Shown here one piece after another: positions 52,346 through 59,503 of a stretch of 64,000 nt of DNA. The stretch covers positions 1 through 64,000 of the forward strand of contig CACMZO010000001.1 of NCBI GenBank assembly GCA_902618195.1, read 5' to 3'. The notes under the pieces are model-generated. The model saw only the letters and a list, made by a program, of their open reading frames with translations, was not told the DNA's origin and did no database searches. Every line of letters begins with the position of its first letter. Position 1 is the first letter of the stretch. The position numbers and the translations under genes were made by a program. This stretch comes from an uncultured SAR116 cluster alpha proteobacterium (GTDB taxonomy: Bacteria; Pseudomonadota; Alphaproteobacteria; Puniceispirillales; Marisalimonadaceae).

Positions 52346-52870
52346 ATGATCATATACCTTAATACTATTTATAAATCTAAACTAATATTTAAAAAAAAAA
52401 TTTTTTTTTGTCAGCTTGGAAAAAATGGTAAGGTTCCGAATTATAAGAAAAAAGAAGGTGATAAATGCACACCTATAGGTAAATTTACTGTTAAATCTAT
52501 TTTTTTAAGGAGAGATAAAAAATTAAATATTCCTTTAAGAAAATATATAAAAAACAAAATTTATTTCATTCGTGAAAATTATGGTTGGTGTGACGATGTT
52601 GACTGTAAAAAATACAATCAATTAGTAGATTTAATTTCTAAATTTAAATATTCTCATGAAAAATTATATAGAATTGATGATGTTTATGACATTATTTTGG
52701 AATTAAGTTATAATCAAGATCCTACAATTAGAAATAAAGGAAGTGCAATCTTTGTTCATTGTTCTTTTAATGATTTGAGAAATACAAATGGTTGTATAGC
52801 TTTAAAAAAAAATAATTTAAAATTCATAATTAATAATTTACAAAAAATAAATTACATATATATAAGATGA
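52346..52870 (+). CDS. YkuD-domain L,D-transpeptidase/carboxypeptidase, no signal
   Basis: The 174-residue protein has the YkuD domain with LGKNGKVPNYKKKEGDKCTP, H138 in FVHCSF and the catalytic cysteine C150 in NTNGCIAL. There is no signal peptide or membrane helix. Compact signal-less YkuD proteins such as ElsL (LdtK) of Acinetobacter work as cytoplasmic L,D-carboxypeptidases in peptidoglycan recycling, whereas typical L,D-transpeptidases are exported. Its divergent neighbour AmpG fits the first role. A10-T9 lies within the fifth of the gene nearest the start. Confidence 0.78.
   Translation: MIIYLNTIYKSKLIFKKKIFFCQLGKNGKVPNYKKKEGDKCTPIGKFTVKSIFLRRDKKLNIPLRKYIKNKIYFIRENYGWCDDVDCKKYNQLVDLISKFKYSHEKLYRIDDVYDIILELSYNQDPTIRNKGSAIFVHCSFNDLRNTNGCIALKKNNLKFIINNLQKINYIYIR
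52391..52409 (+). repeat. A10-T9 homopolymer pair inside the YkuD gene
   Basis: Ten A (52391-52400) followed by nine T (52401-52409) encode part of FKKKIFF close to the start of the gene. Such a tract can bend DNA, promote slippage, or form an A-T hairpin in RNA. Confidence 0.85.
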
Positions 52871-54898: not shown

Positions 54899-55765
54899 TT
54901 ATTCGTTAATTATATTTGAAAAGTCTAAATTACCTTTATTATTTTCAGTTACTTCTTTGTATTTCTCATAAGTCTGAATTCCATAATTAATTTTTGATTT
55001 AGTCTCTGCTGCAGCATCGACTGCCAATCCTAAATCTTTGTACATCAAAGCAGTTGCAAACCCTCCTTCATAGTCTTTATCAGCTGGAGAATTTGGCCCA
55101 ATTCCTTTAATTGGACAATAGGAATTAACAGCCCAACATGAACCAGTTGAAGTGGAAATAACGTCAAATAATTTATTCAAATCTAACCCTAAATTTTTTC
55201 CAAGATTAAAACTCTCACCAACGGCAATCATTGTTGAGGCTAAAAGCATATTATTACATATTTTTGCACTTTGTCCTGATCCTTCTTCGCCACATAAAAT
55301 AGAGTTTTTTCCCATTATTTCAAAAAGAAACTTCATTTCATTATATGTTTTTGACGCACCTCCAACCATAAAAGTTAAAGTTCCTTGATCAGCCCCGATC
55401 ACTCCACCAGATACAGGTGCGTCTAATGTTAATAAACCTTTTTCTTTTGCTATGATTTGAACTGACTTAGACGTTTTTACATCAATTGTAGAACAATCGA
55501 TAAAATATTGGCCTGTTTTTGAAAAGGGCATCATTTCTGACCAAACTTTTTTAACCGCAATACCATCCGGTAACATTGTAATAATTATCTCCGATTCACT
55601 AATCAAGTGATTTAAATTATTAGCAATAAGAATTTTCGTATTTTTTAAGTTTTTATAAGCATTATCATTTATATCATAACCAATAATTTCAAGATTTTGT
55701 TTTGATAAATTTATTGACATCCCCTTTCCCATATTTCCTAATCCAATAAAACCAATTTTTTTCAT
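54899..55765 (-). CDS. mmsB: 3-Hydroxyisobutyrate dehydrogenase
   Basis: MmsB oxidises 3-hydroxyisobutyrate to methylmalonate semialdehyde in valine breakdown. The 288-residue protein has the NAD motif IGFIGLGNMGKGMS, the loop DAPVSGGVIGADQGTLTFMVGG, the catalytic-lysine helix SAKICNNMLLA, SSTGSCWAVNSYCP-like residues and YEGGFATALMYKDLGLAVDAA, all as in true HIBADH and unlike the family member at 27435. Its ATG overlaps the stop of the GH84 gene by four bases, so it is translationally coupled to that gene, an odd partner for a valine enzyme. Confidence 0.87.
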   Translation of the reverse strand: MKKIGFIGLGNMGKGMSINLSKQNLEIIGYDINDNAYKNLKNTKILIANNLNHLISESEIIITMLPDGIAVKKVWSEMMPFSKTGQYFIDCSTIDVKTSKSVQIIAKEKGLLTLDAPVSGGVIGADQGTLTFMVGGASKTYNEMKFLFEIMGKNSILCGEEGSGQSAKICNNMLLASTMIAVGESFNLGKNLGLDLNKLFDVISTSTGSCWAVNSYCPIKGIGPNSPADKDYEGGFATALMYKDLGLAVDAAAETKSKINYGIQTYEKYKEVTENNKGNLDFSNIINE

Positions 55766-56910
55766 TTTAAATTTCTCCTATATTTAAGAACTTTTTGAAT
55801 AGGGTTTGTTTGCGTTTTTAAAACTCTATTAAAGCTTAAGCTTTTATCAAAAATTTGTAAATCGTGTTTCAAATTTAATAGATATGGGTACCATTCTCTA
55901 GAAATTTTTGTTTTCCACTGCCAAAGCAGAAAGTCCAATGCTTTATATGTGTTTTCTGAATATTTAAATGTCTTTATTTTTTTTTCAAATGTAAAACAAG
56001 GTGACATAAAATGATGACAAATATAAAAAAAAACATTTGGAATGTTATGTTTTATTAAAACTGCTTTCCATAATAAAAAATTATTCTTTATTGCTGTTTT
56101 ATTTACAATTTCAAGTATAAGTTTATCAGTTTCAATCATTCCAGTACCATTTATCATCGATTTTTCAATTAAATTTTTATTTTCCCAAGGGCCAATAAAA
56201 ATTTTTTTTGGACAATAATCATTCGCATAATAATTATCCCAATTAATAATTTTATTTTCTTTAATTTTTTTTATTATAATTTGGTGATTACTATTAAATG
56301 TTTTTGAAACTATGTGTTTGCCTGTAAAGAAGACTTGAACATTTTTATTAACTGTTTTAAAAAAATCATTTAAATAATTTTTATTTTCAATATTTAATTC
56401 ATCAGAATATATTCGAGGCACAGCAAATATAGGTGATGAAAGTTCTTTAATAGTTTCATTAATGATCCTACCATGTATTTCGCCTTCAGCTTTATTTTTA
56501 ACAAAAAATTTGAATTCGTTTGGGATATCATCAAATAAAATCGCAACATGCGCAACTCCATGAGATAAAAAGGTATTAAATTTTTTTATTAGCAAATTTA
56601 GTTCTTCTTTATTACCTTCTACATAAGATTTGAAGTTAAAATCTAATCCAGGTGATATGCCTGCAATTACTTTTATATTTTTTTCTGAAGCATATCTATT
56701 AAATTTAGAAAAATTCTTGAGCCATTTAATACTATACTGTTCTTTCCATTTGAGTCTGTGGTTTATATCTTCTTTTGGACAATAGAAATAAAAGTTCATG
56801 TTATTTTTGTAGAGAACATCCAATAATTCAATTCGTTCGTTCCATGTTAATAATTTTCCATAATATCCTTCAATATATCCCTTTACTTTTTTATAATTTA
56901 GATTTTTCAT
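55762..56910 (-). CDS. GH84 family beta-N-acetylglucosaminidase
   Basis: This 382-residue protein covers the GH84 (O-GlcNAcase/NagJ-type) catalytic domain: KGYIEGYYGKLLTWNERIELL, YFYCPKEDINHRLKW, ISPGLDF, the catalytic aspartate pair D127-D128 in LFDDIP, FFTGKHIVS, and WDNYYANDYCPKKIFIGPW. GH84 enzymes remove beta-linked GlcNAc by substrate-assisted catalysis. There is no signal peptide, so it should act in the cytoplasm. It sits beside PIG-L, AnmK and MurQ, which makes GlcNAc-anhydroMurNAc or its peptides a plausible substrate. No GH3 NagZ gene is in the window. Confidence 0.87.
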   Translation of the reverse strand: MKNLNYKKVKGYIEGYYGKLLTWNERIELLDVLYKNNMNFYFYCPKEDINHRLKWKEQYSIKWLKNFSKFNRYASEKNIKVIAGISPGLDFNFKSYVEGNKEELNLLIKKFNTFLSHGVAHVAILFDDIPNEFKFFVKNKAEGEIHGRIINETIKELSSPIFAVPRIYSDELNIENKNYLNDFFKTVNKNVQVFFTGKHIVSKTFNSNHQIIIKKIKENKIINWDNYYANDYCPKKIFIGPWENKNLIEKSMINGTGMIETDKLILEIVNKTAIKNNFLLWKAVLIKHNIPNVFFYICHHFMSPCFTFEKKIKTFKYSENTYKALDFLLWQWKTKISREWYPYLLNLKHDLQIFDKSLSFNRVLKTQTNPIQKVLKYRRNLK

Positions 56911-56919
56911 ATATTAATA

Positions 56920-56947
56920 ATTATAAATTTAAAAAGGGTATATACAA
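56920..56947 (-). promoter_or_regulatory. GH84 promoter, nearly leaderless
   Basis: On the minus strand TTGTAT (56947-56942), a 16-base spacer and a perfect TATAAT (56925-56920) lie nine bases before the GH84 ATG, so the mRNA leader would be about two or three bases. The -35 box touches the PIG-L start codon on the other strand, so the two genes share one 37-base gap. Confidence 0.45.
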
Positions 56948-57637
56948 ATGAAAATTTTAGCTATTGGTGCTCACCCAGATGATATTGAAATTTTTATGTT
57001 TGGTTTTTTATGCTCTTGTCAACAGATGGGATATAAAATTTCAACTTTTATAGCAACTGATGGGTCTTTAGGAGGCAATAACAATGATAACAAACTTATA
57101 GAAAATAGAAGAAAAGAAGCTCAGGAAGGATTAAATAAATTCGGCATTCCATTATTTCTTAATCTCCCAGATGGAAGTTTGGGAAATGAAACTATCCATA
57201 CAACTATTATTAAAGATAGCATTCAAAGAGTTAATCCTGATTTAATTGTAACTCATTATTATAAGGATTATCATTCAGATCATGTCAATTTATCAAAAAT
57301 TGTAAAAAATGTTACAGGGCATTATATACCGATCTTATATTGTGATACAATGATGGGAATAAATTTTAATCCTACTTATTACATAGATATATCAAAATAT
57401 ATGACAGAAAAAATTAAATCTATTTCTTCACATATAACTCAAAAACCTGAAAGATTTATTAATTTAGCAAAATTAATGAATGCGTATAGATCAGCTCAAT
57501 GCAATGCGCCAAAAGGAAGTTACGCTGAGGCATATTTTTTTGAATCCTCTTTCCCATTTTCAGATATTAGAAAAATTCTTCCTGAATCCCCTAAAGTTTT
57601 GCCATTTCACATTGAAAATATTAATGGTTTTTTATAG
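56948..57637 (+). CDS. PIG-L family deacetylase
   Basis: This 229-residue zinc enzyme of the LmbE/PIG-L family has the HPDD motif at H9-D12 in GAHPDDIEIFMFG and a second metal histidine in YHSDHVNLS. Members remove acetyl groups from GlcNAc-containing glycolipids, chitin oligomers, teichoic precursors or bacillithiol-type intermediates. No signal peptide is seen. AAAAAGGG nine bases before the ATG is the ribosome site. Divergent from GH84 and convergent with anmK (17-base overlap), it may deacetylate GlcNAc released by the GH84 enzyme; that is inference. Confidence 0.83.
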   Translation: MKILAIGAHPDDIEIFMFGFLCSCQQMGYKISTFIATDGSLGGNNNDNKLIENRRKEAQEGLNKFGIPLFLNLPDGSLGNETIHTTIIKDSIQRVNPDLIVTHYYKDYHSDHVNLSKIVKNVTGHYIPILYCDTMMGINFNPTYYIDISKYMTEKIKSISSHITQKPERFINLAKLMNAYRSAQCNAPKGSYAEAYFFESSFPFSDIRKILPESPKVLPFHIENINGFL

Positions 57638-58730
57638 GGCAATATAATTGTCCGCCAGAAATTGGTTTAGATACTCCAGTTGTTGATGGAAAAGTATTTG
57701 GTAGGTCTCTAATTGATCTTACTGATAAAAATCCTATTAGTTGCGCTTCAACAAAATCTGGATCAAAATTAGCTGAATTTAAAATTTCAATTTTACATTT
57801 TGTATGCTTTTTTAATCTTTTAATTATATAGTTATTTTTTGCACCTCCACCAGATACAATGATATTTTTTGGGTAATTAGGGAGTAATTTTAAAGAATTT
57901 GATATTGTTAATGCAGTAAACTCGCTAATTGTTGTTATTAAATTTTTAGCATTTTGGCATTGAATTAATCTTTTTATATAATTAGCGAAATATTGTCTAT
58001 CAAGTGATTTTGGGTATGTTAATTTAAAAAAATTATCTGTATTCAGTTCATTAAGGATTTTAGTATTAATTTTCCCACTAAATGCTACATCACCATTCCT
58101 ATCAAAGTCTTTGTTAAAAAATACTTTCATTAGATCATTAATTAAACAATTTCCTGGCCCAGTATCAAAAGCAATTAATTTTTTTTCATCCATGTATGTT
58201 AAATTAGATATTCCACCAATATTTAAAAAACACGTTGGAAAACTAGTTTTCAGTTCTTTAATAATATACTTATGGTAAATAGGTGCTAAAGGTGCCCCTT
58301 GACCTCCATGAATTAAATCATTACTTCTGAAATCAGAAATTACAGGCTTTTTTAAAATGTTAGATAATAATTGTGCATTACCAAGTTGTATAGAAGTTTT
58401 CTCCAGAGGATTGTGGTATATTGTTTGTCCATGAAAACCGATTAAATTAATTTTTTCAATATTAGGAAAAGATAAAATTTTTTGACTATAAAAATTTGTT
58501 ATTTTAAGAGATAATTCTTCTGACAATATTTTATTTTCATAAACATTTAATTCATAATTAGATAATTTTAATAGTTGTTCGGTTATGTTCTTAGGATATT
58601 TAAAATAAAAATTTTTCCCATAATCATAAATTTTAATTCCATCGGTTATTATTGTTGAAATATCAATTCCATCAAAACTAGTTCCGGACATAGTACCTAA
58701 TACATTAATTTTTTTATGTTTTAAAATCAT
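57621..58730 (-). CDS. anmK: Anhydro-N-acetylmuramic acid kinase
   Basis: AnmK opens and phosphorylates 1,6-anhydroMurNAc to give MurNAc-6-phosphate in peptidoglycan recycling. The 369-residue protein has the phosphate-binding NVLGTMSGTSFDGIDIS, GFHGQTIYHNP, the substrate/base segment FDTGPGNCLINDLM and IIVSGGGAKNNYIIKRL. An in-frame ATG at 58775 would extend the protein into the murQ gene by 15 residues; the ATG at 58730 fits the family start. It is divergent from murQ across only 26 bases. Confidence 0.93.
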   Translation of the reverse strand: MILKHKKINVLGTMSGTSFDGIDISTIITDGIKIYDYGKNFYFKYPKNITEQLLKLSNYELNVYENKILSEELSLKITNFYSQKILSFPNIEKINLIGFHGQTIYHNPLEKTSIQLGNAQLLSNILKKPVISDFRSNDLIHGGQGAPLAPIYHKYIIKELKTSFPTCFLNIGGISNLTYMDEKKLIAFDTGPGNCLINDLMKVFFNKDFDRNGDVAFSGKINTKILNELNTDNFFKLTYPKSLDRQYFANYIKRLIQCQNAKNLITTISEFTALTISNSLKLLPNYPKNIIVSGGGAKNNYIIKRLKKHTKCKIEILNSANFDPDFVEAQLIGFLSVRSIRDLPNTFPSTTGVSKPISGGQLYCPIKNH

Positions 58731-58739
58731 TTTATCTAC

Positions 58740-58747
58740 TCTATAAA
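58740..58747. promoter_or_regulatory. Opposed overlapping -10 boxes of anmK and murQ
   Basis: TATAAA (58742-58747, plus strand) and TATAGA (58745-58740, minus strand) overlap head to head. Each ends nine bases before the ATG of its gene (murQ 58757, anmK 58730). -35 boxes are weak. Both mRNAs would be almost leaderless, and RNA polymerase could not bind both sites at once. Confidence 0.35.
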
Positions 58748-58756
58748 TAACTAAAT

Positions 58757-59503
58757 ATGAACTATAAAATTCCAAAAATAGAACAAACTTATCCTATTAA
58801 GCATCAAATTGATACTTTAGATTTAAGTAAGTCTTTCAATTTAATGATAAATGACCAAGCTAAAGTTATTGAAGTAATAAAAAAAAATAAAAAAAATATT
58901 TTGATCATTATTAATTTTTTGATTTCACATTTGTCGAAATTTGAGGATGCACGTTTAGTTTATTGTGGTGCTGGAACTTCAGGTAGAATTGCAGTTCAAG
59001 ATGCTGTGGAACTATATCCTACATTTGGGTGGCCAAGAAATAAGATTGAATTTATTTTAGCTGGCGGTGTTAAATCACTTCAAAGATCAATCGAAAATGC
59101 AGAAGATGATGTCTTACAAGCTAGAAAAAATTTTATAGAAAAAAAAATAAGAAAAAATGATGTTGTTATTTGTCTTGCTGCTAGTGGTAATACAAAATTT
59201 ACAAATGAAATTTTAAAAGAATGTATTAAAAATAATATTAAATCAATTGCCGTTAGTAACAATCCTAATGGTGTCATTTTAAAAAATTCTAATTTTAAAA
59301 TTGTATTAAATACTCAAGAGGAAGTAGTTGCTGGCTCAACAAGACTTAAAGCTGGAACTGCACAAAAAATTTGCTTAAATATGATATCGACAATAGTTAT
59401 GGCAAAATTAGGAAATGTTAAAAATGGAATGATGATAAATATGATACCAAGTAATGATAAGTTAAAAAAAAGAATGAACAGAATTAAAGAAATGAATGAA
59501 TAA
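58757..59503 (+). CDS. murQ: N-acetylmuramic acid 6-phosphate etherase
   Basis: MurQ splits D-lactate from MurNAc-6-phosphate to give GlcNAc-6-phosphate, the step after AnmK. The 248-residue protein has an SIS domain with VYCGAGTSGRIAVQDAVELYPTFG; E85 and E116 match the catalytic glutamates (E. coli E83 and E114), and VVAGSTRLKAGTAQK is the MurQ signature. It is about 50 residues shorter than E. coli MurQ (298): the small C-terminal helical domain is missing. The remaining fold includes all catalytic parts, so activity is likely. Confidence 0.9.
   Translation: MNYKIPKIEQTYPIKHQIDTLDLSKSFNLMINDQAKVIEVIKKNKKNILIIINFLISHLSKFEDARLVYCGAGTSGRIAVQDAVELYPTFGWPRNKIEFILAGGVKSLQRSIENAEDDVLQARKNFIEKKIRKNDVVICLAASGNTKFTNEILKECIKNNIKSIAVSNNPNGVILKNSNFKIVLNTQEEVVAGSTRLKAGTAQKICLNMISTIVMAKLGNVKNGMMINMIPSNDKLKKRMNRIKEMNE

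Follow-up and report, generated by a model that had tools for sequence, protein, structure and literature searches.

The 64,000-nucleotide stretch of DNA analysed here (the window) comes from an uncultured SAR116-cluster alphaproteobacterium and belongs to contig 1 of a 1.24-Mb assembly that is 61% complete. Within it, genes for a GH84 beta-N-acetylglucosaminidase, a PIG-L/LmbE de-N-acetylase, AnmK and MurQ are immediate neighbours (Table 1). A first-pass annotation, made from the sequence alone, had read these four genes as an amino-sugar salvage cluster in which GH84 does the work of the GH3 enzyme NagZ, freeing anhydro-N-acetylmuramic acid (anhydroMurNAc) from N-acetylglucosamine (GlcNAc), and PIG-L deacetylates the released GlcNAc. 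Pfam and NCBIfam profile matches placed all four genes where that annotation had put them; it had overlooked an AmpG-family permease and an ElsL-like YkuD protein a few kilobases away, which tie the cluster directly to muropeptide recycling. The nearest named relative of the GH84 protein (88% identical) is from a SAR116-cluster alphaproteobacterium, and most of the next-nearest records come from this cluster too.

Table 1 Genes of the proposed recycling cluster and its surroundings in the window
Feature	Position	Strand	Evidence
AmpG-family muropeptide permease, 455 aa	50917..52284	-	TIGR00901 348.7 bits, just under cut-off 350; kept beside cluster in relatives
YkuD-domain protein without leader, 174 aa; candidate ElsL-type cytoplasmic L,D-carboxypeptidase	52346..52870	+	PF03734 40.4 bits; no signal or extra domain seen
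3-hydroxyisobutyrate dehydrogenase (HIBADH)	54899..55765	-	TIGR01692 324.6 bits, cut-off 291.6
GH84 beta-N-acetylglucosaminidase, 382 aa; proposed to stand in for NagZ	55762..56910	-	PF07555 172 bits, Pfam cut-off 25; O-GlcNAcase homologs
PIG-L/LmbE de-N-acetylase, 229 aa; proposed to stand in for NagA	56948..57637	+	PF02585 84.4 bits, cut-off 28.2
AnmK, anhydro-N-acetylmuramic acid kinase	57621..58775	-	NF007141 (equivalog) 363.6 bits, cut-off 352; Pfam 258 bits, cut-off 24
MurQ, MurNAc-6-phosphate etherase, short form, 248 aa	58757..59503	+	NF003915 (subfamily) 250.7 bits, cut-off 168

The GH84 assignment rests on the profile match, the catalytic Asp pair and a barrel like that of O-GlcNAcase (OGA). 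In an alignment to O-GlcNAcases the pair D127-D128 is present together with K46, Y168, W224-D225-N226 and N230-D231-Y232, which bears out the full motif set described earlier, and the pair and the aligned pocket residues are retained in nearly all full-length relatives. An AlphaFold model (pLDDT 83, pTM 0.87) has a fold matching O-GlcNAcases (Foldseek E ~1e-19). Judging from the conserved active site, the sequence and the modelled fold, GH84 is an intact enzyme. Both GH84 and PIG-L had been called signal-less, and indeed their open frames barely exceed the genes (383 against 382 aa and 234 against 229 aa from stop to stop), so that a signal peptide is impossible on either. Across 127 loci the barrel motif of GH84 begins at a median position of about residue 11, and the lack of a leader supports a cytoplasmic location. 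Relatives of ~30% identity, some with longer N-termini, occur in metagenome-assembled genomes (MAGs) labelled Fibrobacterota (L148, L150, L152–L154); with no recycling genes near their GH84, we dropped any extension of the recycling claim to these MAGs.

The first-pass annotation had proposed looking for nagZ across the genome. We searched for NagZ as the GH3 N-terminal domain (PF00933), a profile that matched control genomes as expected, and found none in the window's own genome nor in any of 58 genomes of its family. Across the order the domain occurred in 2 of 89 genomes and in none of the 43 near-complete ones. One of these two matches (G102) lies in a chimeric frame that fuses a LOG-like protein to part of a beta-glucosidase-type GH3 and to an ABC-type end, and is ruled out as NagZ. 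The other (G085) is a real nagZ beside apparent scpA and scpB, on a 3.8-kb contig of a MAG that is 7% contaminated; it is not shared by other genomes of its genus and is probably a contaminant. The same chimeric fragment was the sole GH3 match among 24 genomes holding more distant GH84 loci (G117–G140, labelled alphaproteobacteria or Granulosicoccaceae, some of whose MAGs also belong to the order set). By these profile searches NagZ is effectively absent from the order, which makes GH84 the best candidate for its job.

The cluster itself is conserved across relatives, and with nagZ missing the proposed check thus favours the earlier idea about GH84. Of the 39 loci from the window's family, 38 contain PIG-L and 36 contain AnmK. 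AnmK is also present in 33 of 39 loci from other families, several of the missing cases lying at contig ends. In other families of the order the packed order is AmpD-like amidase, AmpG, YkuD, MurQ, AnmK, PIG-L, GH84 and M19 dipeptidase, with AmpG, YkuD and AmpD joined directly to the cluster, whereas in the window's family HppA and HIBADH stand between AmpG/YkuD and the rest. The GH84-PIG-L-AnmK-MurQ block of G034 sits amid polysaccharide genes, without the usual AmpG, HppA and HIBADH flanks; G047 has MurQ-AnmK-PIG-L without GH84, inserted genes reaching the contig end, and the contig of G073 stops just past PIG-L. Gammaproteobacterial MAGs labelled Granulosicoccaceae (an NCBI family name) carry AmpD-AnmK-GH84, or else dipeptidase-AmpD-AmpG-GH84 and, close by, AnmK-MurQ; those with GH84 gave no GH3 match. 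Such varied arrangements of the same partners favour a functional link over a merely inherited neighbourhood.

Among the 89 genomes of the order, GH84 and AnmK were each detected in 62, together in 59, and neither in 24 (Fisher p ~2e-15, a value overstated because relatedness is ignored and neighbouring genes vanish together with missing contigs). More telling is that both genes are cleanly missing from G045, which is 100% complete, and from genera g11 and g12; these cases point to real joint loss. We rejected co-occurrence alone as proof, given neighbouring genes and incomplete assemblies, and put the weight on the absence of NagZ, the altered gene order and the other lineages. Where AnmK occurs without GH84 in G058 (L261), it adjoins a beta-lactamase-like serine hydrolase, a distinct neighbourhood.

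PIG-L was assigned by its profile match and its metal motifs, HPDD (residues 9–12) and HSDH (109–112; H-x-D-H), which are conserved across relatives. Its fold matches BC1534, BshB and diacetylchitobiose deacetylase, and also GalB hydratase; it is not BshB1 (TIGR04001 83.7 bits against a cut-off of 182.5). No NagA scored above the TIGR00221 cut-off in the 58 family genomes, weak matches being taken as other amidohydrolases. When 36 GH84-positive genomes were scored for both genes, 18 had only cluster-type PIG-L, 15 only NagA, none both and 3 neither; the exclusion also held with a separate NagA profile, on which this main count does not depend. In genus g13, as in G068, the NagA gene is next to AnmK or close to it, and genus g6 is split between PIG-L (G061) and NagA (G064–G066). 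This complementarity to NagA makes GlcNAc-6-phosphate from MurQ a likelier substrate than free GlcNAc. PIG-L probably acts on GlcNAc-6-phosphate in place of NagA, a claim held less firmly than that for GH84, and action on both substrates is possible. Another, distant PIG-L-type gene (57.7 bits) lies on the same contig outside the window (G000:C1:78337-78882). Beside NagA in genus g13 stands a gene of the malate/L-lactate dehydrogenase family Ldh_2 (L229:15100-16314 = L173:2641-3855), whose product might use D-lactate made by MurQ.

Several observations weigh against these assignments. Because GH84 and AnmK adjoin, their absences correlate through missing contigs, and the cases that speak for real joint loss are few. 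MurQ fell outside the stretch read in several loci of the family and lay farther off in 2 of the 4–5 examined. As for PIG-L, 5 of the 15 NagA calls (G118–G121, G128) are below the curated cut-off, and there are few switches between PIG-L and NagA on the GH84 tree: both decisive independent pairs came out as expected, with a sign test p of 0.5, two pairs being too few to reach significance. Finally, the near-complete, GH84-positive G105, G113 and G116 (L243, L230, L233) carry neither PIG-L nor NagA. GH84, AnmK and MurQ are all present in these three, which may use a third GlcNAc-6-phosphate deacetylase.

The analysis shows which genes are present, which are missing, how far they are conserved and that the active sites are intact; from this we infer every substrate and the order of steps as follows. 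AmpG would import GlcNAc-anhydroMurNAc-peptides, the YkuD protein would trim off the terminal D-Ala, and the peptide would be released by an AmpD-like amidase, which many relatives encode in their clusters. GH84 would then split GlcNAc from anhydroMurNAc, from which AnmK would form MurNAc-6-phosphate and MurQ in turn GlcNAc-6-phosphate and D-lactate. Last, PIG-L (NagA in some relatives) would deacetylate GlcNAc-6-phosphate to glucosamine-6-phosphate (GlcN-6-phosphate) for GlmM and GlmU. GH84 catalysis employs the substrate's own 2-acetamido group, so cleavage must precede deacetylation. Taken together, the locus very probably encodes a complete cytoplasmic recycling cluster at whose core GH84 replaces GH3 NagZ, a role well supported by comparative genomics. 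The role of PIG-L is moderately supported by the same kind of comparison, and we lean only slightly towards both unrelated replacements holding jointly, GH84 for the NagZ step and a PIG-L GlcNAc-6-phosphate deacetylase for the NagA step.

The part of the original proposal that concerned GH84 is thus well supported, whereas its assignment of PIG-L to the released GlcNAc calls for revision, the gene being complementary to NagA and not to a GlcNAc-specific enzyme. In that scheme a glucokinase-type enzyme would phosphorylate the resulting glucosamine and some other enzyme would handle GlcNAc-6-phosphate. Known PIG-L relatives such as BshB and diacetylchitobiose deacetylase do take unphosphorylated GlcNAc derivatives, the gene is the divergent neighbour of GH84 at a distance of 37 bases, and no ROK-type GlcNAc kinase was found in six family genomes (other kinases were not searched for), which suggests that free GlcNAc does not take the usual phosphorylation route. 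Yet the enzyme that PIG-L complements has GlcNAc-6-phosphate as its substrate, and without NagA the MurQ product would become a dead end, so we regard deacetylation of free GlcNAc as possible but rather improbable.

Doubts about GH84 itself take two forms. The NagZ job could fall to another glycosidase, for example a leaderless GH20, leaving GH84 to non-anhydro GlcNAc-MurNAc or imported chito-oligosaccharides; we give this little credence, since GH84 tracks AnmK and no other hexosaminidase was recognised in the cluster in any of the lineages, although no search was made for other hexosaminidase families. We give slightly less still to the idea that GH84 acts as an O-GlcNAcase on proteins or glycans, or trims surface polysaccharide intermediates, and has come to lie in a polysaccharide-rich region by chance. 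Its closest solved relatives are O-GlcNAcases, and glycosyltransferase, epimerase and Wzy-like genes flank the family clusters; but the link to AmpG, AmpD, AnmK, MurQ and YkuD spans families, and partly gammaproteobacteria, without polysaccharide genes, GH84 and AnmK occur or are lost together, and NagZ is missing. A recycling enzyme in the place of NagZ remains the reading we prefer for GH84.

The cluster genes alternate in strand, an arrangement maintained in relatives. HIBADH and GH84 overlap by 4 bases, GH84 and PIG-L diverge, and PIG-L and AnmK overlap by 17 bases. With the called TTG start at 58775 AnmK overlaps MurQ by 19 bases; the more likely start, judging from the sequence, is the ATG at 58730, with which the two genes would diverge, 26 bases apart. 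The match of MurQ to its subfamily profile spans positions 6–241 of 300, and the protein fails the full-length equivalog TIGR00274 (176 bits against 302), some 55 C-terminal positions being missing. Short MurQ is consistent in the window's family, where the protein mostly has 245–255 aa and the last ~50 model positions are missing.

The YkuD protein fits the make-up of the ElsL class in length (105–200 aa for the class) and in having PF03734 alone, the absence of a leader being judged by reading; it is placed between AmpG and MurQ in compact clusters of relatives, and a sequence search of solved structures found no relative. HIBADH adjoins GH84 only in the window's family, and M19 dipeptidase occupies that place in other lineages. 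HIBADH is probably not part of the pathway, and both it and HppA were rejected as members, being absent from that place in other lineages. In 26 of the 39 loci outside the family (L210–L245, for example L218:7957-8976), the M19 membrane-dipeptidase-family gene either overlaps GH84 or directly adjoins it, and its product is a possible candidate for a muropeptide dipeptidase.

NagZ counts as the hallmark enzyme of muropeptide recycling and is also treated as a target for countering inducible beta-lactam resistance; a genome that lacks it is therefore easily judged non-recycling. The cluster suggests instead that abundant ocean bacteria recycle with a different enzyme set. The GH84 family, familiar from O-GlcNAcases and from enzymes that act on host glycans, would gain a housekeeping role; the cluster also suggests a function for a PIG-L subfamily, and GH84 inhibitors from O-GlcNAc studies might block cell-wall recycling in such bacteria. 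The route had been flagged as unfamiliar, and a full-text literature search, with most subscription journals outside its scope, agreed: for GH84 together with peptidoglycan recycling, muropeptides or NagZ it returned only inhibitor, fungal, gut-glycan and similar papers and none on peptidoglycan recycling, for PIG-L with NagA nothing relevant, and for SAR116 with peptidoglycan recycling none. The recycling variant is real and conserved, and apparently undescribed. If both replacements hold, GH84 would, to our knowledge, gain its first role in recycling and PIG-L its first member acting on GlcNAc-6-phosphate, on a route widespread in marine SAR116 and partly shared with gammaproteobacteria.

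Compared with NagZ-AnmK-MurQ-NagA recycling in Escherichia coli, the window has homologs of AmpG, AnmK and MurQ, and the proposed chemical steps are identical; it differs in having GH84 for GH3 NagZ, PIG-L for NagA in this family and a YkuD-type for the LdcA-type carboxypeptidase, all clustered. The model alphaproteobacterium Caulobacter crescentus, the most thoroughly studied relative, shares AmpG, an AmpD-type amidase and AnmK, but recycles via NagZ, NagK, two NagA and the MurU route and has no MurQ (PMC13046382). ElsL, the cytoplasmic YkuD L,D-carboxypeptidase of Acinetobacter baumannii, likewise consists of one YkuD domain of about this length, lacks a leader and belongs to a recycling context (PMC8649774), a likeness of make-up; unlike ElsL, the window's protein clusters with AmpG and MurQ. 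With the GH84 O-GlcNAcases (human OGA, Clostridium NagJ, Bacteroides BT_4395 and Thermobaculum TtOGA) the window's enzyme shares the catalytic barrel and active-site residues, but it is short and leaderless, with no recognised accessory domains, a C-terminal helical region of its own and a place in a recycling cluster. PIG-L, in turn, has the fold and metal-binding motifs of BshB, BC1534 and diacetylchitobiose deacetylase at only ~20% identity, and its partner genes and complementarity to NagA suggest a substrate other than theirs.

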